A stretch of 64,000 bases of DNA, from NCBI GenBank assembly GCA_950022655.1, contig OX465590.1, positions 37,213,218 through 37,277,217 of the forward strand. Reading direction: 5' to 3'. Positions 431 through 59,894 of the stretch are shown piece after piece (position 1 is the stretch's first letter; every line of letters begins with the position of its first letter). A model generated the notes under the pieces. That model searched no databases. It was not told the DNA's origin and saw only the letters and a program-made list of their open reading frames with translations. This stretch comes from Alentia gelatinosa. Taxonomy: Eukaryota; Annelida; Polychaeta; Phyllodocida; Polynoidae. The translations under genes and the position numbers were made by a program.

Positions 431-29001
<28,571 letters not shown>

Positions 29002-34180: not shown

Positions 34181-37100
34181 TTAAGTCATCCAAGTCTTTT
34201 CCTGGTCGGTCTTCAGCCTAACCACATCTCCTGTTTGTAGATTAGGCAGGGATTTGACACCATTACGGTTGTTGTAGTGGTGCTCATATCCTGCTTTTGT
34301 TGCTTTATCAGTGTCTCTAATGACGTCTGGGTTAGGCCATGATGGCCTAAGTCTGGCACCAAGAGTTGGCAGATTTGTACAAATATGTCGGCCCATGAGG
34401 AGCTGGGATGGGCTACACCCTGTAGCGGCGATGACAGTGTCCCTGTAAATCATCAGTGCCAGCCACGGATCATCTTGTCTCAGGATACTTTTGGCTGTTT
34501 TCACAGCACGTTCTGCCTCTCCATTAGAACTTGGCAGATGGGGGCTAGAAGTGACGTGGTTGAAATCACACTTATTCGCGAACTGTTTAAACTGTTCAGA
34601 TGCAAACTGGGGCCCGTTGTCTGAGACTACTTCCTGTGGGAATCCCAGTCTGGCAAACACATCCTTCATCTTGGCTATCACTGCTGAAGATGTAGTCGTT
34701 GATAGATGGAGTATCTCAATCCACCGTGAATGATAGTCAACCATAACAAGATACTCTTGACGCTCGAACTGACACAGGTCAACTCCTATTTTCTGCCAGG
34801 GTAGATCAGGGAGCGTAGTCGTCATGAGTGGTTCCTTGTTCTGGGTCGGTCTATAGGTTTGACAAAGGTCACAAGTGGTCACGATACCTTTCACATCCTT
34901 GGCCATACCAGGCCACCACACAGACTCCTTTGCTTGTTCAAGGCATTTTGTGATACCCTGATGGCCTTGGTGTATCTTGTCGAGAATATCTGGTCTCATC
35001 TTTTCCGGGACGATGATCCTGTTGCCATAAGTCAGTAAACCATTACTAACTGATAGGCTCCCTCTCACATTGAAGAGCTGTTTCAGCTGGTCTGGGACGT
35101 CCTGTTCGTACTTCGGCCTTCCAGCCAGGGCAAACACACTTGCAGCTCGGAGGACATCATCATCGTGTGTTGCCTTCCGAAGCTCTGCCATCCGGTGGTC
35201 GGACATGGGAAGACTCTCCTCTACCATGGCCACGTGTATTGCAACCTCTGTGTCCGTCACAGTTGCATTATCCCACTTAGGGCTTCGTGAAAGCGCATCA
35301 GATATCACCATCGTCTTTCCAGGTGCATACTCAGCCTTCGCATTAAAGCGGAGCATGCGCATCAACAAACGTTGACATCTCAAGGGTGCTCTGTCTAAGT
35401 CCTTCTCGTTGATCAGAGTCACCAAGGGCTTGTGGTCTGTTAAGACCTTAAAGTTCTCCAGTCCACAAAGGAAACAATCAAACTTCTCACAGGCCCAAAC
35501 ACTAGCGAGACATTCCTTCTCAATCTGGGCATACAGTTGTTCAGCTGATGATAGGGTCCTTGAACAGTATGCGATGGGCTTCAGCTGACCATCGTGGTCC
35601 TGAAGCAGCACACCACCTAGACCATAGCTACTCGCATCAGCGCTCACTACGGTCGGCTTGCAAACATCATAGTAGGCAAGAGCTTGGGCTGATGATACCA
35701 GCTTTTTCATCCTATCAAAGGCCTCCTGCTGAGGTTGTCCCCATGACCACACAGTGTCACTTCGAAGCAGGTCGTTCAAAGGCTTAGTAATGTCATGAAG
35801 ATTTGGGAGGTAGGCTCCGAGGTAATGTACCATCCCCATGATCTGGCGTAAAAGCGGCACGGACGTTGGTTCGGGCATCTCGATTATCGCCGATACCTTG
35901 TCGCTGTCTGGTTCAATACCACTTTTGGTGAACTTATGTCCTAAGAACTTGAGTTCTGACTTGCCGATCACACACTTCTCCTTGTTCAGTTTTAGGTCAG
36001 ATTCCTGAAGATGTTTCATGACGTTGTCTAGCCTCTGATCGTGTTCCTCTCGGTCTTTACCATAGACGAGAATGTCGTCCATGTACACGAATGTACCCTC
36101 CAGTCCATCTAAGACCTCAACCATCTTTCTCATGAAGATTTCAGGTGCGGATGTTATCCCGAACGGGAGTCGTCTGAAACAGTATCTCCCGAAGGGCGTT
36201 ATAAAGGTTGTCAGCTCACAGCTCTGCTCCTCAAGCGGGATCTGGTAGAATCCACTGGTCGCGTCCAGAGAGGAGAATACTGACGCACCATTCAGCTTGG
36301 ATGTTGCATCTTCTAAGGTCGGTAACACATACCTTTCACGTTTAACACTTACGTTTAGTTTCTTCAGATCTACACAAAGCCTCACTTTACCTGACTTCTT
36401 CACCACAGGTACCATCGGAGCACACCATGCCGTAGGTTTTGTAATCTTACGAATTACATCGTTGGCCTCTAGCCTCTCGAGTTCCTCTTTAACCTTTGGG
36501 AGCAGGGGAATCGGTACACGTCGTGCAACAGTCAGAGCATATGGCTGGGCATCATCGTGGAGCACAATCTTGACAGGCTCTGTCTTGAAGCATCCCAAAC
36601 CCTGGAAGACCTCCACTTGATCTATCTTCTTGATCAGACCCATACGGCAGGCGACGCTGCGGCTCATCAAGCAGTCAATCAACTTTTGAACTACGATCAC
36701 TCTAAAGAAATACTTTGTACCTTTAAAGTTTGTTCTGGCGACAAACTGTCCCAAAGGCTTGACTGCACCACCCAGACTTGACAACTCTATGTTGACAGAC
36801 TTGAGTTGTGGCTTATTTCTCATCCTCTTGAATGTCCTCTCTGACATAATGCTGACGTCGGCTCCAGAGTCTAATTTCCATTTAACAAAATTTCCGTTAA
36901 TGTCAAGCTCTGTAAACCAAGCTGGGTCGCTGTCGGGGCAGTCAACGGCTCCAAGGAAGTACCCACTGGCTCCTCCATCGTCATCGTCATTTTGGTTGAT
37001 AGTCACTTCAAGGTCTTCAACGGCTGGTTTATTTTTACAAACAGAAGCGAAATGGTTCCAGCCCTTGCAGAGCACACACTTCTTTCCCTGAGCTGGACAC

Positions 37101-37798
37101 TTCTGGGTCCTATGCACGTAACCGCACTTTCCACACTTTGAGCTGTCCTTCTTTGGTGGGCCGCCACTTTCCTTCTTGGGTGGTCTGCTTCCACCAGCAG
37201 GTTTCTTCGGCTTTGGTTTACGTACAAAGTCCACCTTTGTCTCGTTCTGCTTTTTAACCAATTCGGAGTGTCGTGCCATCTCTACTGCCTTATCGAGCGT
37301 CAACTCGTCTTGTTCCAGCGGTAGTTTCAATGACACCTCCTTGTCGGACATTCCGCTGATTAGACGGTCTCTGATGTTTTCGGTCTCACGATCCCCGAAA
37401 CGACAATTTTCTGCTAACTCGTGAAGGTTACGCACAAAACATTCAACAGATTCTCCTGCTTGTTGAGTCCGCTGGTAAAACCGTGTCCTCTCATGAATAG
37501 TATTTCTCTTAGGGACGAAATATGCGTTGAATTTATCGAGCACTACATCGTAATCATCTTTTGGGTCGAGCGGATTAGGCTGAGCTTCGGTCGCGGCTGG
37601 TGGAGGATTGAACGTAAAGGACTTATAGATATTTTCTGCCTGTCTACTCATCGCGTAAATGAGTGAAGCAACCTGAATTTCACCATCATCTTTGTGAAGT
37701 TTTGTGGCAATTCTAAACCTTGCAAACCTTTCCCTCCACTCTGGCCATTTAGCAGGGGCATCAAAAGTCATAGGCTCAGGGGGGTTAAATTTGGGCAT
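34181..37798 (-). CDS. Gag-Pol polyprotein of the gypsy element (1205 codons)
   Basis: One uninterrupted frame. Two zinc knuckles at about residues 222-254 (CGKCGYVHRTQKC and the classical CVLCKGWNHFASVC); aspartic protease DSGA at about 309; reverse transcriptase about 420-620 with FGITSAPE and YMDD; RNase H from about 690 (SADASSYGLGGVL); integrase from about 890 with an HHCC zinc site (HQGHQG..CDLC), and catalytic DDE residues in VDYHSRW, SDNGPQF and SSNGEAE. Domain order protease-RT-RNase H-integrase is that of Ty3/gypsy (Metaviridae). The frame stops at TAA 34183-34181, inside the integrase C-terminal region. Clade not assigned. Confidence 0.95.
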   Translation of the reverse strand: MPKFNPPEPMTFDAPAKWPEWRERFARFRIATKLHKDDGEIQVASLIYAMSRQAENIYKSFTFNPPPAATEAQPNPLDPKDDYDVVLDKFNAYFVPKRNTIHERTRFYQRTQQAGESVECFVRNLHELAENCRFGDRETENIRDRLISGMSDKEVSLKLPLEQDELTLDKAVEMARHSELVKKQNETKVDFVRKPKPKKPAGGSRPPKKESGGPPKKDSSKCGKCGYVHRTQKCPAQGKKCVLCKGWNHFASVCKNKPAVEDLEVTINQNDDDDGGASGYFLGAVDCPDSDPAWFTELDINGNFVKWKLDSGADVSIMSERTFKRMRNKPQLKSVNIELSSLGGAVKPLGQFVARTNFKGTKYFFRVIVVQKLIDCLMSRSVACRMGLIKKIDQVEVFQGLGCFKTEPVKIVLHDDAQPYALTVARRVPIPLLPKVKEELERLEANDVIRKITKPTAWCAPMVPVVKKSGKVRLCVDLKKLNVSVKRERYVLPTLEDATSKLNGASVFSSLDATSGFYQIPLEEQSCELTTFITPFGRYCFRRLPFGITSAPEIFMRKMVEVLDGLEGTFVYMDDILVYGKDREEHDQRLDNVMKHLQESDLKLNKEKCVIGKSELKFLGHKFTKSGIEPDSDKVSAIIEMPEPTSVPLLRQIMGMVHYLGAYLPNLHDITKPLNDLLRSDTVWSWGQPQQEAFDRMKKLVSSAQALAYYDVCKPTVVSADASSYGLGGVLLQDHDGQLKPIAYCSRTLSSAEQLYAQIEKECLASVWACEKFDCFLCGLENFKVLTDHKPLVTLINEKDLDRAPLRCQRLLMRMLRFNAKAEYAPGKTMVISDALSRSPKWDNATVTDTEVAIHVAMVEESLPMSDHRMAELRKATHDDDVLRAASVFALAGRPKYEQDVPDQLKQLFNVRGSLSVSNGLLTYGNRIIVPEKMRPDILDKIHQGHQGITKCLEQAKESVWWPGMAKDVKGIVTTCDLCQTYRPTQNKEPLMTTTLPDLPWQKIGVDLCQFERQEYLVMVDYHSRWIEILHLSTTTSSAVIAKMKDVFARLGFPQEVVSDNGPQFASEQFKQFANKCDFNHVTSSPHLPSSNGEAERAVKTAKSILRQDDPWLALMIYRDTVIAATGCSPSQLLMGRHICTNLPTLGARLRPSWPNPDVIRDTDKATKAGYEHHYNNRNGVKSLPNLQTGDVVRLKTDQEKTWMT

Positions 37799-43038: not shown

Positions 43039-46000
43039 GTACGTAGATTACTCTACCCACCACTCATAACTTCCGTTTACCAGCGCTTCTTCAGATGTCG
43101 ATCGCAGAGCCCTCTCGTGATAAGTCATGTATGTGTGTTACCTGTGGTTCCCCTTTTGTACGGTAGATGGCGATACCAACCACCGGCTAACTGAACTCGC
43201 GCCTGAGCCTGAGGAAGTTGATGATGAGGGGGCGTGTATTCTGTTCTGTTTGTGCTTGTGGAGCTAATGTTTGAGGGCAGAAATGTGAAAATGGTACAAT
43301 ACCGCAAGAATTTTACAAGAGATCACAGCACGACCACAAATATGTATAAACTTATAACATGGCTACAATCAACTGACTGCAAATCATTGCATAGTGTAAG
43401 CCAATACAGGTGTTGCCGTTCAACGCCGCCTAACGGCCCACTCTCTAGTAACGCGGCCGCTCGGACAAACACGTCCGAGTCCGGGCACTTGAGACCCTAT
43501 TGAGGTATCCCAGAATTCAGTCTGTTTACAGGTCCCGGTGGGCGCTAGTTACCGACGTTGTATGGTGATAGACCCTTGACCCGTAACTCACAATCATTGC
43601 TTTTTAACGGTTTTTATAAGTCTTCAAATGGGAAATCCAATGTCAGAAATGGAATTTTCAGCTATTTCTATATGTATAGCCAAAATTATATTCAGGTTAC
43701 TCAAATATAAATGGGAAAACTGTGGTTCATATGATTGTAGTGTGTCCAACCACTCGCGAGCGGAACTTGTATTTACCCTGGGCGATAATCGGGAGCCGAG
43801 TAACCTCTGGAGGGCGTTATACCTAAAGTGTGAACGGTGGGTGTGATTACAGAAGTGTTGTTTTTGGACAGATTGGACTGCTAGAACAATTAAAGGCATT
43901 GTATCAACGAGTCTGGGCTATCAAAATTTTATAGTTTATAATTGTTTTGGTTTTAATTTGGAGAAATATAAGCACATGGTAGCTAGGTCTGCCAGTGTAT
44001 TAATGTATATTCAGTTTCAGTGATCCTAGGTTATCTATGCTATATCTAAAGTATTATTGAGGCAATATGCATGTATGACATACCCGATTTGAGCTGGAAT
44101 ACCATAGAATAAGATGCAATCATCATTATTTCTCTGGAAATAATGTAGACGGGTATTATGAACATATTATGCTCATAGACTCAGTGTTCCAGTGCTAAAT
44201 AATAGGTTACCAGGTGAATTTTTGGCTTCAGCTGTGTCGTAACTAAGCAGATAAGGTGCGACACCGGCCAGTGGAAAAAGGCCTATTACTCAGGAGGACA
44301 CTACCCCTACTTTAAGTCAACCATCCAGTTCAAGATCTGAGTTGTAAGCAAATGATAAGGAAAATAATAGAATCTCCACTTACAAATGTATTGAATCTCC
44401 ACTTACAAATGTATTGTATTTTCATATATTTGCATGCTACATTGTAGTTTATATTGTACTCTTCTTTTACTGTCATTACTATGCTCCAAGCTGTTTATAA
44501 CACAGTCTGAGTCAATAAATGTAATTGCATTTACTTGCGTTAAATAAAGATGATATTGATTTAACCTCATTTACTCCGTTAAAGCAGTGTTTTGGACCTC
44601 CACACAGACCCTCAGCCTCATGCCATGACCGGCAGGGACATATTATCCAAGTTTTTGGAATCTTTCAGAGGCAGAGATACCTCGTACAAGGGCTATTACT
44701 TCATGATTTTTAAGGTTGTTTACTAATTAAGTTGAATTAAGTGAATCCACATCGTCCCTGGTTCTCCTTGGCGTTCAGAAGAGGGTCTTTCTGTACCATC
44801 CTAGATTATTAACAAAATAATCAATTCAATAAAAGTGAGACATTCCTGCACCGGTATATATGATAATATGCAGGAAATAAGAGGAAAATAGGCATACATT
44901 GTACTTACACGAAATTATTCTGCAGTATTGCCGAAAGAGTTCAAGTGATCATAGGAAATGATGTTCATATTGATACTTGCTTGGTTTTCACTTTTTCCCA
45001 AATTATACCTATGTTTGGAGAGTGTGGACCAGATCTGAGATCTGTTACCCTGGTTGGATCCTACTTTGTCTAATCCAGAACAATGGTTGACCTGGAGACA
45101 CTATATTAACTTGGTTTGAACTGACAGGAAGTTGTCATTAACAAGGTAGCATCAGCTTTATCCAGAGGTGTCTATTGCCACGTCTTAGACGTGTTTTTTT
45201 TTTACCCCCATAATGTCAGAAAAGAACCATTGTTTAGTTTCTTACAGTGCTTCTCTCCCATTTTGACAATTTTGCCACTTTAATAAAGTTGTCAGGCCGT
45301 ACACAAAGTGTATCAGCCCCTAAATGTGACAAAGTCTATATGCCTTGAAACAGCCTAACATTAAGATGCCTGAAGAGTCCGATTCGGATGAAACCTTGGA
45401 GTCCCACCCGACACCGGTCATACATAAGACAGTGTTCATAACCAGAAATCTGCTTGGTTATACAGCTATTTACTCACTAAAACATGCTGGGAGAATAGTC
45501 AAGGTAGTGTGATGTCACTGCCGTGAGGGGTGGTTGTTATGCTACGTTGTTCTGATAACAATGTCTCCTGGGAGATCGCATAGCAACGGTCAGGTTCTGA
45601 CATGTAGATGTCATTTTCAAGGTAGCTTCGGTTGTGATCAGAAGTGTATGTGCCTCGTATTCTTTAAAAAAAAACAACCCCAAAACCCCAAAAGAACTCA
45701 TATTCTTAACTAGACGGGGGCCCTCCATAAAGTACGTACACACTGAGGGGGGGGGGGGGGGGGGCTGGGGGGGGGGGGGGTTAACAAATTTGCGTATGCT
45801 CCCTCTTTGTTCTATTGCGTACTATAGAGGAAACCCATGAAAGTTTAGGGTCAGAGCTTGTATCCCATCAAGTTTGAATCACGTAGTAATTCACAAGGCG
45901 AAGCCGCATGAATTATGTAGCGATTCAAACGAGATGGGATTGAACTCTGCCCCATAACTTGAATGGGTTTCTGAATTTATCTCACCCTTTACATTGACTA

Positions 46001-49000
46001 ATGGACTAACATTTGTGACATAATCCCCCATTGGATATTTTTCCGAAATATCTCATGGGCATTAGATACGAGTTCCCAATGTTAAGTCTATGGAGAAAAA
46101 ATATCTGGGGTGGGTAGGGGGGTCAGAAATTTTGGAAATTCTGCGTACATACTTTATGGATGGTCCCACACGATATTTGAAAACGAAGATATCTTAGCCA
46201 GTACTAACGGTCCAATACATTCTGGTGAAAACCTTGTGTTTGTAGGTAAGGTAAACGTACTGTATGAGGATGATCTGGGCGTCGTCGACTTCTACCCGTC
46301 ATCTGAAGTAGGAGTCATCTACATACCAGAGGGGGATATGGTCGCCGGCACCACCTACAAGAGAAAACTCGCCAAACTCAGAAAGGCAAGAAAATCATAT
46401 CACACGGGTGCACGTTTTCTGACGGAATTCCGTCGTTTCATACACACTGTTATCCTACCCCTGATATAAAATCCCATAGGCTTAACATTGGGTTTCCGTA
46501 TGCCACGCTGACTGTTTTATATGCCACTTGTGGCATACAGAATTGTTATCATGTAATATTCAAAAATCGAGGAGACAGGGTAGGATAAAATCAAAACCTG
46601 ATTCATTTTAATCGTGGCCACCGCATGCCACTCCTGGAGTTTTGGCTCCGGACTTCACTCAGCTTCGCCTCATGAAGTCACTATGCCAAACTCCAGTCGT
46701 GGCATACGGTAGCCAAGATTAAAACTCATCCAGTTTTATGATAGCAACACTAGAATATGTATGGATCCATAGCCATTCTGTTCTAAAATAATGTTATAAA
46801 TGATTATTTTTATTAGCCTTTTTAAATTTCCGATTTTTTTTTCTCAGTCCCGACTTTCATCCCTGGTATCAAATTTGCAACAGGGATATGACGTTTTCAG
46901 GAAATTGAATGACATATTCAAACTATAGATAACGTCATATCAGTCTGACAATAGTTAACATTGACAACGTGAAGGACATTTTAATTGCTCACATAACATG
47001 TACATGTTAAATCCCCCCCCCCCCTAAATGGGAAGCTGAAATGTAATACCGTAATTGAGATCACTTAATGTTTGTAATACATTTAATCCCTAACAGGCGA
47101 ATACAGTTCGTGGGATAGTGCTTGCTGAGAAAACACCAACAAGCACGCAGTATTTCGCTGCCCTGCAGAAGTTTGCTGTCCTTGACCTTGGATTAGTTCT
47201 TCTCCCGGTGAACTCTCAAACCGAGGCAGCAACTGTGTTGGCAGAATTGGTAAGATAAGGACAAAAAAATCTAAATTTTGCATGTCACTTGATTTGATTG
47301 ATTTTCTAGGAATTAGGTATTGGAACTTGCTCACCATAAGCCTGTCGGATACGATCTGTTATCTCACCCCAGATATTTTTTCTCCATAGACTTAACATTG
47401 GAAAGTCGTATCTAACACCCATTAGATATTTAGGAAAAATATCCAATGGGGGATAATGTCAAAAATCTTAGCCCATTAGTCAATATTAAGGGTGAGATAA
47501 ATTCAGAAACCCATTCAAGTTTAGGGTCAGAGCTCGATCCCATCTCATTTAAATCACATAGCAATTCACGCGGCTTCGCCTTGTGAATTACTATGTGATT
47601 CAAACTTGATGGGATACAAGCTCAGACCCTAAACTTTCATGGGTTTCCTCTATAAAAACAGACATTAAAGGGTTTAATTGCCATCGATAATACATTATCG
47701 TTCTTCCTAGTGAAAAGGAGAATTATGCATAATGTATGGTAGATAATATGTGTTTGTTTTCACTCAACAATCATTTCCTTATTACTTCACTTCAATTTTG
47801 CAGATGTTGTATCATCTTCAATATATTGTTCTTGATATTAACATAATTTTCATACACTCAGTTCTGCCCCTGCCCTATAATTCTAGCAGTTAGTGAAATT
47901 TGTCCACATATCTATGTATTTGTGATGGTTTGAAATTTGAAAATCATATTCTGAGAAACTAATTCGCCTTGTCTTTTCAAACGACTACTCCACTCACATT
48001 TATGACAGGTTCATGTAGAGAATAAGCCAACCCAGAATCAGTTCAGACTGAAGCGAAAGCCAGAACCAATCAACTCAAGCCTACTTTCAACGATTCAGAC
48101 TATCCCAGGACTAGGGGGAACGAAAGCTATGGTTCTCCTTGATAATTTTAAAAGTGAGCATGCATTTGTAATACAATTAGAAAAAGAAACGTATTTTTCT
48201 ATTGTGTTTTTATAAATCTCCCGTTTCGATCGGCAGTATAATGACTGGATTGATCTCTGATTAACAGCATAAAGGTTGTTAATGTATAGGCGTTTGTGTT
48301 TTTACATATCTATTTAATTAGTAAATTGATAAACATATTCCTTAAGGATTAATTTTCGGACTAATCCAGTAGTAATATTAGAAAACAAGTAACCCTTGAT
48401 GAATATTTTTTTTTTGCAACAGCGGTGTGCAGACCGACTTGGCCTCGTATTGCCATTCTCCAACCCTTAATACATAAAAATATAAAGATGACCATGATAA
48501 AGGAACTAAAATGATTCCTTATTATCAAATACATGTATAGTGTGCAAGAGTAAACCTGAACAAACTTGTGTTATGTTATTCAGGTATTGAAGGAATATGC
48601 AACGCGTCAGAAGAGGTGAGAAAATAAAAATATTATAATTACAATAACAGTTCATGTATTCAAGATAGACGTATATCGCCAGGAGAATGCCTCCAGGCAA
48701 TCCCAGGACTGAAAGGGTTTGACTGGAAATCGCTGGTCCGATTATAAATGCCGGTCCCATTTAAGAAAATGTTGATACCATAAATGTATAATTCATAGAA
48801 ATATTATAGAGGAAACCCATGAAATTTTAGGGTCTGAGCCCGTATCCCATCAAGTTTGAATCACATAGTAATTCACGCGGCTTCGCCTTGTGAATTACTA
48901 TGTACATGTGTAATTTAAATGAAATGGGATCGAGCTCTGACCCTAAACTTGAATGGGTTTCTGAATTTATCTCACCCTTAATATTGACTAATGGGCTAAC

Positions 49001-49956
49001 ATTTGTGACATTATCCCCCATTGGATATTTTTCCTCAATATCTAATGGGCATTAGATACGAGTTCCCAATGTTAAGTCTCTGGAGAAAAAATATCTGGGG
49101 TGAGATAATGCGTGATTACCTGTATCTCTCTTCGGCATGTTTATTCAAATTGTTTATTTGCTTCATATATGCATTCATGGCTCAACTTGTCATCATTTCT
49201 CACCCGTATCACATACGTTATATAATTGTTAGTCATTGTTAGTTGACCACTTATAGTTAGTCTACTGTAATATTTAATTGTCATCTGTTTACTTGTTATC
49301 TAGTTATATCTTCATTATACATGCAAGTGACATAGCGGTAATATGTGGATCTAAAGTTACACCCTATAGTGGCAAAGCGGGCCGTATGATGATGAGTTTT
49401 AATCTTCGCCACCGTATGCCATGACTGGAGTTTGGCATAGTGTCTTCATGAGGCGAAGCCGAGTGAAGTCCGGAGCCAAAACTCCAGGAGTGGCATACGG
49501 TGGCCAAGATTAAAACGAATCAGGTTTTGATTTTATCCTACCCCGTCTCCTCTATTTTGGAATATTACATGATAACAATTCTGTATGTCACTAGTGGCAT
49601 ACAAAACTTCGTATGCCAGTCAGCGTGGCATACGGAAACTCAATGCTAAGCTTATGGGATTTTATATTAGGGGTGGGATAAATATATTAGACATTCTTTT
49701 TTCACTGTGCCATATGTTATACATACTATACCCTGCACATAGGTTAGTAACTATAGGACTGACGAGTACAGGTGTATAATAAATGTATAACTGTACAGGT
49801 GTATAATAAATGTATAACTGGACTTGTGGCACTCTTGTTTTCTTGTATTCATAGCCATCATTTTTTCCTTCTGCTTTTCTGAAGGATCTGGCAGCAGTTA
49901 TTGGTCGGGCAAGTACTGCACAAATAAGGAAGTTTTTTTGTGACTCATGCAGTTGA
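42909..49956 (+). CDS. FAAP24: FAAP24 gene, six coding exons (complete, 223 residues)
   Basis: Exons 42909-43038, 46246-46385, 47097-47249, 48009-48153, 48584-48615 and 49885-49956 chain in phase to 223 codons plus stop; vertebrate FAAP24 has about 215. Matches run the whole length: PVGHVIVSDRWRNSELV, KVNVLYEDDLG, DMVAGTTYKRKLAKLRK, AEKTPTSTQYFAALQKF, AVLDLGLVLLPV, then IPGLGGTKAMVLLDNF and the second helix-hairpin-helix. FAAP24 has a catalytically dead XPF-like nuclease fold plus tandem HhH; it pairs with FANCM in the nucleus, binds single-stranded and branched DNA, and brings the Fanconi core complex to stalled forks. Introns are filled with MITEs. Intron 2 uses a GC donor. Confidence 0.95.
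43402..44287. mobile_element. Interspersed element, family X-long (FAAP24 intron 1)
   Basis: About 885 bp whose left part (CAATACAGGTGTTGCCGTTC, TAGTAACGCGGCCGCTCGG) and right part (GGTGCGACACCGGCCAGTGG, AAAAAGGCCTATT) recur in reverse at 62667-63247. The central part matches 13640-14110. Non-coding. Confidence 0.7.
44678..44825. repeat. Interspersed repeat, family D
   Basis: Shares CTCGTACAAGGGCTATTACT and AATCCACATCGTCCCTGG-like words with 20384-20600 and 62096-62262. Confidence 0.5.
44998..45400. repeat. Interspersed repeat A/B, order A-B
   Basis: Block A (ACCTATGTTTGGAGAGTGTG to GCCACGTCTTAG) precedes block B (AATGTGACAAAGTCTATATG to GATGAAACCTTG), the reverse order of the copy at 21480-21890. 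Confidence 0.6.
45716..46166. mobile_element. MITE family P interrupted by a family S fold-back element
   Basis: Left end GGGGGCCCTCCATAAAGTAC with long G-runs, right end GTACATACTTTATGGATGGT at 46166. A family S element (45833-46112) separates the two halves, so S inserted after P. Lies in FAAP24 intron 1, about 80 bp before exon 2. Confidence 0.8.
45833..46112. mobile_element. Fold-back element, family S
   Basis: Arms from GAGGAAACCCATGAAAGTTT pair across TAATTCA-CAAGGCGAAGCCGCA-TGAATTA (45887-45915). The right part has TCTAATG-type palindrome, AATGTTAAGTCTATGGAG and ATCTGGGGTG. Confidence 0.85.
46246..46385 (+). CDS. FAAP24: FAAP24 coding exon 2 (GC donor)
   Basis: Acceptor TTGTGTTTGTAG at 46234-46245. 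Encodes KVNVLYEDDLGVVDFYPSSE and IYIPEGDMVAGTTYKRKLAK. The exon must end at AAG 46385 before GCAAGA: only this gives phase 0 into exon 3 and the same spacing as the vertebrate protein. AG|GCAAG is the standard GC-AG donor form. Confidence 0.9.
46450..46741. mobile_element. Fold-back element, family T (FAAP24 intron 2)
   Basis: Starts TTATCCTACCCCTGATATAA, then CATAGGCTTAACATTGGG, a TATGCCACTTGTGGCATA palindrome, GGGTAGGATAAAATC, and arms around GACTTCA-CTCAGCTTCGCCTCA-TGAAGTC (46651-46679). Its full reverse copy is at 49386-49682. Confidence 0.85.
47097..47249 (+). CDS. FAAP24: FAAP24 coding exon 3
   Basis: Encodes GIVLAEKTPTSTQYFAALQK and VLDLGLVLLPVNSQTEA, the best-conserved stretch of the family. 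Acceptor CTAACAG, donor GTAAGA, phase 0-0. Confidence 0.95.
47359..47654. mobile_element. Fold-back element, family S, reverse orientation (FAAP24 intron 3)
   Basis: TTATCTCACCCCAGATATTT, CATAGACTTAACATTGG, palindrome TATCTAACACCCATTAGATA, GGGTGAGATAAAT, then arms around AATTCAC-GCGGCTTCGCCTT-GTGAATT (47563-47589), ending GGGTTTCCTCTATA. Confidence 0.85.
48009..48153 (+). CDS. FAAP24: FAAP24 coding exon 4, first helix-hairpin-helix
   Basis: Linker, then LLSTIQTIPGLGGTKAMVLL with the GLGGTKA hairpin of the first HhH motif. Acceptor TATGACAG, donor GTGAGC, phase 0 in, 1 out. Confidence 0.95.
48584..48615 (+). CDS. FAAP24: FAAP24 coding exon 5, 32-nt microexon
   Basis: Encodes (S)IEGICNASEE, aligning with SIQQLSNASIGE in vertebrates. 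Acceptor TTATTCAG, donor GTGAGA, phase 1 in, 0 out. Too short to show up as an open frame, but needed for continuity. Confidence 0.9.
48805..49108. mobile_element. Fold-back element, family S (FAAP24 intron 5)
   Basis: Begins TATAGAGGAAACCCATG; perfect inner stem ATAGTAATTCAC/GTGAATTACTAT around apex GCGGCTTCGCCTT (48877-48889), which is the reverse sense relative to the outer frame of 45833; ends CTGGGGTGAGATAA. Confidence 0.85.
49386..49682. mobile_element. Fold-back element, family T, reverse orientation (FAAP24 intron 5)
   Basis: Arms around CTTCA-TGAGGCGAAGCCGAG-TGAAG (49444-49468), then GATTTTATCCTACCCC, palindrome CGTATGCCAGTCAGCGTGGC, CAATGCTAAGCTTATGGG and GGGGTGGGATAA. Confidence 0.85.
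49885..49956 (+). CDS. FAAP24: FAAP24 coding exon 6 and stop
   Basis: DLAAVIGRASTAQIRKFF aligns with ELEQVVGQAVAQQIHAFF, the second HhH; stop TGA at 49954. Acceptor TTTTCTGAAG after a long pyrimidine tract. AATAAA signals follow at 50144 and near 50180. Confidence 0.93.
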   Translation, partial: DLAAVIGRASTAQIRKFFCDSCS

Positions 49957-56344: not shown

Positions 56345-56600
56345 ATACTATCTCACCCCAGTATTTTCTCCATAGGATTAGTACTAGGAACTCATACTCC
56401 ACGGCTGTGAAATTAGTGGCTAAATGGGTGAGTTATGTTATTAATTGATAATGTTCCTGTTCATGTATATGGGGTGAGATAAAATCAGAAACCCACTCGA
56501 TGAAAATCAATTGGTCCCAACTCTGCCGAGTTTGATTGCGCAGTAATTCACGAAGTGAAGCTAAGTAAATTATATAGCTTAATTTATTCATTTCACATAT
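56345..56600. mobile_element. Fold-back element, family S-like, decayed
   Basis: ACTATCTCACCCCAGTATTT, CTCCATAGGATTAGTACTAG, then GGGGTGAGATAAAATCAGAA and TAATTCA-CGAAGTGAAGCTAAG-TAAATTA around 56553-56582. Framework as in 47359. Confidence 0.65.
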
Positions 56601-57529: not shown

Positions 57530-57725
57530 AACTGCATCAAGAGCCATAGCCACTGAAAATATGACATGAGTTTTGGTTGTGGAGTAATCTCATGAGGCAA
57601 AGCAGAGCAAGATTATGTGGCAAACGTAAGAGGATGGCATACTTTCAGTGGCTATGGATCCAGTGTGGTTCAGGTTTTATTTCACCCAATCACTGACTAA
57701 TTGACTAACATTTGAGACATCATCC
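57530..57725. mobile_element. Fold-back element (GAGGCAAAGCAGAG apex)
   Basis: Arms from GAGCCATAGCCACTGAAA to TTTCAGTGGCTATGGATC pair around TAATCT-CATGAGGCAAAGCAGAGCA-AGATTA (57585-57615). Confidence 0.75.
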
Positions 57726-59034: not shown

Positions 59035-59894
59035 GTAAGCATCTTCTCTGTGTGACAGAGATTTTGTAGAAGATCTGTTCTTATATAGAACGTCCTGACC
59101 ATGCTGTACAAGTCACAGAACGAGATGCTAATTTGCTGTTTGTACGGACCAAGGCATTTACGCCGAGTTCCGTACAAACGGTAAATTCGCATCGAGTTCT
59201 GTGACTCGTACAAGCATGGTTGGACGTTATATATTTACTATATACCCGAAATTGAAAAAAAAATCAATTTCATTTTTCTTAAAAACCAAAATTTTAATAA
59301 ATGTGTATGGCTAGATGGTCCGTATTTTAGTGTACAGACCAGTGGTCCGTACAGTATTTTTATGTCATATGCCAAAACGGTGCGCATTTACAGTATATAC
59401 GGCATGGGTATATAGTAAAGTCTGCGATGACTGTCTCAATTGCCCCGGGAGCGGTCCGAGGTAATTGCTCTTGTCGATCCTCCAGCGCATGCTTTGAGCT
59501 GCCGATCGCGCCTGCACCGTCTTGTTGGTCGCCGTCTGGTTCACCCCCGTCTGTTTTATGGTCTCCCGTCTCTAGAATCCGTAAACTTCTATTCAGCTCT
59601 TCCAAACATTGTGTATGTTGTTGCTGAGCTGAATCCTTGCATTTAGGACATTCTTTTGTCGTACGTCCATCGTACTTGTATAGACAAAGTTGACAAACTA
59701 CTGCTAGAAGCAAGAAAGTTGTCCACGGTTTCATGACACGTCCGTTTCAAAAAAAATTCTCAGAGACAATGGGACGGAGTAACGTGTGTAATTCGTTACC
59801 TGCCCGTGGTGGAGCCACTGAGGGTTAATTAGTTCCATTGGATTCCGCCTAACTCGCTAGGAGTATTTATATATACATACAGAGGTTGTATCTA

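Follow-up and report, generated by a model that had tools for sequence, protein, structure and literature searches.

The 64-kb stretch of Alentia gelatinosa DNA analyzed here (the window, C12:37213218-37277217 of a 1.234-Gb genome) carries palindromes that appear to have unrelated arms and nearly the same tip, which raises the question of what these structures are and why the tip should be kept. An earlier note had counted at least 14 of them and given tip positions for 13, and all 13 tips are indeed present at palindrome centers. We found 13 strong hairpins in the window and none in each of three dinucleotide shuffles scanned with the same setting. A looser setting, which was not part of the shuffle comparison, gave 15 hairpins, among them 10 of the 13 listed sites; the other three (48877, 49449, and 4159) fell under the scan threshold and were matched by a covariance model. 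This model matched all 13 sites, 15971 only at an E value of 0.026, and the match is not independent since the training tips came from the same families. The long self-complementary arms, put at ∼50 to 65 nt, are also real, with arms of 59, 65, and 75 nt. Four of the 15 scanned hairpins are other palindromes lacking the tip (9485, 42566, 50804, and 60143). Searches of the window with Rfam at gathering thresholds and for tRNAs (bacterial code) returned no matches. The observation of hairpins sharing a tip is right and goes beyond chance. Another short perfect palindrome family without the tip, GATATGGCACCGAT...ATCGGTGCCATATC, was seen at L017:42-97, L027:674-722, L048:2441-2496, and L053:2589-2644.

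Grouping of the arms by blastn with the tips masked (E<1e-4) yielded several unrelated groups, as had been claimed, but the 13 sites amount to 8 groups and not 13: four sites belong to family A, two each to families B and C5, and each of the remaining five stands as a group of its own (Table 1). We also found a further hairpin and a relic tip beyond those listed.

The well-kept hairpins turned out to be the ends of larger elements, which the earlier note did not describe; these elements are short and non-coding and bear asymmetric inverted repeats. Next to each such hairpin lies a short word whose reverse complement is found further upstream: TTATCTCACCC ... GGGTGAGATAA in family A, TTATCCTACCC ... 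GGGTAGGATAA in both B and C6, TTATTATATACC ... GGTATATAATAA in C0, and TTTACTATATACCC ... GGGTATATAGTAAA in C4, while C2 has the repeat TTATTATCCATC. The repeats measure ∼11 to 15 nt, the 3' copy is internal, and the long hairpin (about 140 to 165 nt) forms the 3' end; in family A the 3' repeat lies about 150 nt from that end. A partner word of at least 11 nt was found in the right place for 37 of 87 scanned hairpins, and the hairpins scanned in A, B, and C0 stop within about 7 nt of the element 3' end. Copies of A run TTATCTCACC...CTCTATA and those of C0 TTATTATATACC...CCTAATA. Head-to-tail copies without a spacer occur in L007 (A-A) and L018 (C0-C0).

Table 1. Elements, hairpins, and tips in the window (positions count from the first base of the window)
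Feature	Position	Strand	Hairpin and tip	Remarks
Family C2 element, TTATTATCCATC repeat	648-1043	+	hairpin 902-1043, tip TC-GC-TAGC-GC-TC	absent from the earlier list
Worn element C32, repeat of family A type	4095-4423	-	tip near 4159	bounds by eye
Family C9 element, inner TTATTATATACC	6814-7111	-	hairpin 6814-6971, tip near 6886 (TC-TGCC-TAC-GGCA-TC)	outer repeat imperfect; bounds by eye
Worn family A element	15898-16279	-	hairpin 15907-16048, tip near 15971	apparent internal insertion; bounds by eye
Family C0 element, TTATTATATACC ... GGTATATAATAA	17032-17330	-	hairpin 17031-17194, tip near 17104 (TC-CGCC-TAT-GGCG-TC)	
Family C5 element	19386-19690	+	hairpin scanned 19523-19703, tip near 19606	imperfect repeat; bounds by eye
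Second C5 element	19690-20124	+	hairpin 19961-20124, tip near 20038	tandem with the first; bounds by eye
Family A element	45823-46112	-	hairpin 45830-45971, tip near 45894	genome C12:37259040-37259329
Family B element, TTATCCTACCC ... GGGTAGGATAA	46450-46737	+	hairpin 46590-46742, tip near 46658	end by eye
Family A element, 5' TTATCTCACCC, inner GGGTGAGATAA	47359-47654	+	hairpin 47506-47647, tip 47570-47582, GC/TT form	
Family A element	48801-49109	-	tip near 48877	
Family B element	49390-49682	-	tip near 49449, TC/TC on element strand	last 3' bases differ from the other copy
Relic tip, nearest group A	56544-56572	-		model match E 0.00077
Element C28, 3' part, inner repeat TTTTATTTCACCC	57541-57687	-	tip near 57594	5' end not found
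Family C4 element, TTTACTATATACCC ... GGGTATATAGTAAA	59083-59418	-	hairpin 59083-59234, tip near 59151	

Among the neighboring features, an exon of a FAAP24 homologue lies at 46110 to 46469 on the + strand (PF17949, E = 1.1e-15; PDB FAAP24 chains, E down to 4.8e-7), and further exons of this gene can be seen by eye on the same strand on to about 49960, so that the elements at 46.4 to 49.7 kb seem to sit in its introns. A collagen-repeat frame (PF01391, 58263 to 59069, + strand) directly adjoins the C4 element, and an SNF2-related exon (PF00176, 3232 to 3606, - strand) lies about 500 bases from the worn C32 element. The - strand also holds an open frame of 1,205 amino acids at 34181 to 37798, which from its motifs resembles an LTR-retrotransposon polyprotein, and, at 1936 to 2800, frames in which a unit of about 25 residues is repeated in tandem, probably a minisatellite.

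The tip itself had been described as unpaired. In fact a 2x2 internal loop sets off a mini-hairpin there, and the mini-stem also changes pairwise. In the usual form the stem is followed by TC, then by a mini-stem that covaries and closes a short loop, then by a second TC and the other half of the stem; the complementary strand shows GA ... GA around the mini-hairpin, often with a GNA/GNNA-like loop. Read from repeat to hairpin, the B tip is TC-GGC-TTC-GCC-TC, and the C0 and C9 tips in Table 1 are written in the same direction. Further forms are TC-GCTC-TAC-GAGC-TC in C19 (L024), TC-AGTC-TAC-GAC-TT in C7 (L047), TC-AGC-TCC-GCT-TC in C6, TC-AGC-TAAT-GCC-TC in C5, TC-GC-TATC-GC-TC in C2 (L044), and TC-GGCA-TAAA-TGCC-TC in C4, which has TT variants too; a C7 variant at L050:7333 carries a long inner stem between both TC. 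By reading, the tip is present in 14 of 33 arm groups (TC/TC in 12, GC/TT in A, and reversed in C8) and missing from 17, a count that leaves out two single hairpins in L020 resembling worn A and B. TC/TC is not indispensable, since the abundant family A has GC/TT.

Wherever the repeat allows a call, the tip points the same way with respect to the inverted repeat. With orientation set by the repeat alone, 37 hairpins gave 14 TC/TC (10 of them from family C0, whose copies had been fetched deliberately), 6 GC/TT, 1 TC/TT, no GA/GA, and 16 without a strict call, the strict calls being confined to A, C0, C2, C4, C6, and C19. The other 50 scanned hairpins comprised 34 without a call, 12 of TC/TC type, 2 of A type, and 2 others. 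The C8 hairpin at L050:7623 shows TC/TC only when read opposite to its apparent repeat, which counts against the explanation that we favor below.

To look at the tip without presupposing its letters, we scanned for a 6-bp stem, a 2x2 internal loop, a mini-stem, and a loop. In 13 random 10-kb loci, GA/GA (equivalent to TC/TC) made up 5 of 17 internal loops, with every other combination found once, versus 0 of 126 in ten shuffles of 194 kb. Four of these five are element hairpins (two C2 and two C6), and the fifth, L044:5518, is AT-rich and falls in no group. The same scan gave 2 of 9 GA/GA in the window and 7 of 37 in the flanks of fetched copies, one of the seven being a TA repeat. The tip word GGCGAAGCC occurs 12 times in 318 kb, and 6 of these occurrences fall within 3 nt of a detected palindrome center, a zone that takes up 0.14% of positions. 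In the sampled sequence, the possibility that the tip is no commoner at palindrome centers than elsewhere was not borne out, and neither was descent of all copies from one consensus with ordinary divergence, given the arm groups that blastn finds unrelated.

The pairing was assessed on 15 tip rows, two of them mislabelled. Outer positions paired in 125 of 150 cases (mean of 64.8 and maximum of 83 in 2,000 shuffles) and mini-stem positions in 34 of 45 (mean of 20.8, maximum of 29); pairing was also how the hairpins had been detected, which makes the outer value partly circular and the mini-stem value less so. For the 10 window tips the covariation score was 0.600, compared to 0.155 for shuffles and 0.061 to 0.194 for slid versions. 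A model built from these 10 tips found 11 matches at an E value of ≤0.001 in the 13 random loci: seven from trained groups (three B, two A, one C5, and one C28), three from untrained groups (two C6 and one C8), and L053:9717, which has no group. By eye, a recognizable inner repeat lies just 5' of the hairpin in 7 of the 11. L050:4772 and L048:2701 were considered as new arm groups and rejected, as they match C5 and C28. The covariation and the three matches from untrained groups uphold the central claim of the earlier note, that of a conserved tip on covarying stems.

How the stems diverge can be followed at two depths. In family C0 (32 hairpins, 96% mean column identity) the changes are mostly one-sided, as in decaying copies, so the covariation lies between families or subfamilies and not among recent copies. 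The L018 subfamily of C0 shows, by eye, three adjacent paired changes on both arms, and at L038:1635-1800 the L018-type three-base block is seen on one arm only, a half-way state of the paired change. At greater depth, seven elements from about five arm groups have one 5' module in common (the subterminal repeat and CCATAGRCTTAACATTGG) and yet carry unrelated arms, which places the change of the arms later than the split of these families. As these elements at least must be related, the tip could be a functionless ancestral remnant of old related families in which only the arms were overwritten. We regard this as the least likely account of all: an unconstrained tip should decay along with the arms, whereas six letters of the arms have a mean pairwise identity of 0.41 over the 15 rows (two with arm errors, all selected for carrying the tip), compared with 0.90 for the four letters of TC/TC, and the mini-stem inside the tip changes and stays paired. 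The stem below the tip may instead need only to pair, in which case its sequence could drift or be rewritten symmetrically. Such rewriting would come about by selection for pairing in source copies or by template switching between the arms (PMC8794818).

The earlier note knew of no named family of this kind and spoke of a fold-back superfamily. Fold-back elements have long inverted repeats forming both element ends; elements A, B, and C0 have the long palindrome at one end only. The architecture published for HINEs and Helentrons, as described in the consulted portions of PMC4067079 and PMC7492417, is just this: an asymmetric inverted repeat and, after it, a palindrome on the 3' side. According to these portions, HINEs are non-autonomous elements of Helentron/Helitron2 type, non-coding, with subterminal inverted repeats of 11 to 15 bp, an internal 3' copy, and then a palindrome; HINE/DINE-1, Cg_HINE, and Pearl have no clear target duplication, a high copy number, and a T-rich insertion preference (PMC4067079, PMC7492417). 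Our elements likewise have subterminal inverted repeats of ∼11 to 15 nt, an internal 3' copy, and a palindrome lying between that copy and the 3' terminus. The supposed superfamily is best read, judging from these sequence features, as a set of what would be HINE-like rolling-circle elements. The mite HINEs in the consulted text of PMC4067079 have palindromes of 5 to 10 bp and a 3' repeat 38 to 60 bp from the end, and the far longer hairpins found here count against our explanation. The bivalve element Pearl has a central array of repeats of about 160 bp, and the published rule for Helentron subfamilies asks that the last 60 bp be at least 80% identical to those of a Helentron. Canonical Helitrons have a 5' TC, a 3' CTRR, no inverted repeats, and a 19-bp palindrome, as excerpted from PMC4778049, and insert between A and T (Helitron1); we rejected this identity because the TC/CTRR ends are absent and inverted repeats are present in A and C0.

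In genome searches A, C0, and B come back as units with nearly constant ends, and among the 40 scored sites per search, the query's own place aside, copies are 94 to 99% identical. First-look candidates numbered 15,859 for a 3.2-kb stretch holding both A and B, 4,146 for C0, and 4,811 for B. In the 13 random loci we counted 19 such hairpins, spread over 8 of the loci (11 matched by the model and 8 from the scan); extrapolation to the genome gives a copy number with an order of magnitude of 10^5, an estimate whose error is large given that the hairpins cluster. In L003 and L004, the 3' ends of A and B elements abut head to head near position 1500, as if insertion favored the ends of other copies. 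The flanks are 62 to 63% A+T. This AT richness, the inverted repeats of 11 to 15 nt, the lack of an intact rolling-circle gene in our genome searches, and a small excess of flank words in common in family C (32 copies; mean of 3.63 versus 3.13 shuffled, with 3 of 500 shuffles as high) would all suit cut-and-paste MITEs of another superfamily with an incidental hairpin. We nevertheless judge such an origin highly improbable, since the 3' repeat copy is internal and the long hairpin forms the 3' end, head-to-tail junctions have no spacer, and family A (11 copies) shows no flank-word excess (3.09 versus 3.27, with 399 of 500 shuffles as high).

It is probable, in our assessment, that the palindromes are the 3'-terminal hairpins of many non-autonomous Helentron-type (HINE/Helitron2-like) rolling-circle families and that the tip is the part read for termination. 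The closest experimental parallel is the Helraiser transposon, for which the consulted sections of PMC4778049 give the 3' hairpin as the signal for termination: exchanging the stem while keeping the loop left a donor with about 90% of wild-type activity, and a changed loop was as poor as a deletion. The exchangeable stem of Helraiser/Helibat1 resembles the varying stems and kept tip seen here, unlike the inverted repeats, which are asymmetric in our elements, and the termini, which are other ones (PMC4778049). By analogy, a Rep/helicase would nick the 5' end, would then peel off one strand, and would stop at the 3' hairpin, which would mark the cut site; the part read would be the tip, in which a TC/TC internal loop (GA/GA opposite) closes the stem and carries a small, mostly G-C mini-hairpin. 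The proposal that a protein or replication step reads the tip is plausible from the kept tip, the covarying stems, and these swaps, and the tip is probably the site where termination is read; what we infer comprises the nicking, the termination, the reading of the tip by a protein, and which protein this would be.

DNA physics, and not a protein, might also keep the tip, if a stable mini-hairpin on the complementary strand and G.A mismatches eased hairpin formation or polymerase stalling and so led to more amplification. The GA/GA strand would allow tandem G.A pairing. By our own count about 8 of 15 representative tips have a complementary-strand loop of the GNA/GNNA kind, and nearest-neighbor energies favor the complementary strand in 13 of 15 tips by 0.4 to 1.0 kcal/mol, one of the tips (C2 w902) having been given wrong arms. 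Mini-hairpins of this GNA/GNNA kind have exceptional stability once they contain at least two G-C pairs, as stated in the part of PMC4686876 consulted. However, C4, C5, and C7b have other loops and yet keep TC/TC, a fully paired stem would beat a 2x2 mismatch in stability, and loop sequence mattered in Helraiser in the sections cited (PMC4778049); we consider the physical account unlikely, albeit the strongest of the alternatives.

A second parallel comes from the Fusarium Helitron2 elements FoHeli1/2, which, in the portions of PMC5148889 consulted, also have asymmetric inverted repeats and carry a mini-hairpin inside the inverted repeat; here the mini-hairpin crowns the long 3' hairpin and the repeat is without one. 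The likeness is a lead, not proof of homology. The tip may be a portable Helentron/Helitron2 recognition module, read on single-stranded DNA by Rep and in essence that of the Fusarium mini-hairpin 5' ends, an idea that we put forward tentatively and think somewhat doubtful. The main text of the HINE/Helentron papers PMC4067079 and PMC7492417, as far as consulted, makes no mention of a composite tip common to unrelated stems, and the consulted text of the open-licence PMC literature yielded no published description of the shared tip. The composite shared tip with its own covarying mini-stem is the new part; the element architecture was already known.

The earlier note had also called for an autonomous partner. 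Decayed Rep/helicase and helicase-endonuclease genes are present, but our searches found no intact one, and no tip was seen at the four decayed loci scanned. Profile and piece searches of the genome (PF14214, PF05970, and the Rep-adjacent and L057 endonuclease pieces) found no intact Rep/helicase gene. PF14214 gave one place, and the piece next to its Rep motif found itself and one 33-residue match; PF05970 gave nine pieces at five loci, of which C1:144085424-144087312 was rejected as an element gene because it looks, by reading, like a spliced host helicase. L010 is a decayed Rep/helicase relic. At L057, pieces of a helicase and an endonuclease lie one after the other, a combination typical of Helentrons; both fell below the Pfam cutoff in the scan of this locus, and the helicase lay above it in the PF05970 search. 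The endonuclease piece of L057 found only itself in the genome. In 26 kb around four decayed loci (L010/L011, L057, L058, and L059) the tip model had no matches up to an E value of 5, hairpin scans at the decayed loci gave only hairpins without the tip, and inverted-repeat words around the L010/L011 relic marked no recognizable element end. The missing tips are not decisive, since the model also misses 8 of the 19 random-locus hairpins and relics may have lost their ends. That these searches found neither an intact autonomous partner nor the tip at the relics is the main gap in the rolling-circle explanation. With copies 94 to 99% identical and no intact Rep/helicase found in these searches, the driving machinery may be one not yet recognized.

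We know of no test of how Helentron 3' ends are recognized. The many families in one genome amount to a natural mutational experiment in which the stems vary and the tip stays, a pattern that agrees with the Helraiser hairpin data and offers their evolutionary counterpart in another branch. It suggests a compact, testable target, a TC/TC or GA/GA mismatch with a mini-hairpin, and a structure-based model can find such elements where sequence search fails. If the tip is such a portable module, any self-complementary stem could carry it, and new non-autonomous families could form by changing all but the tip and the subterminal repeat.
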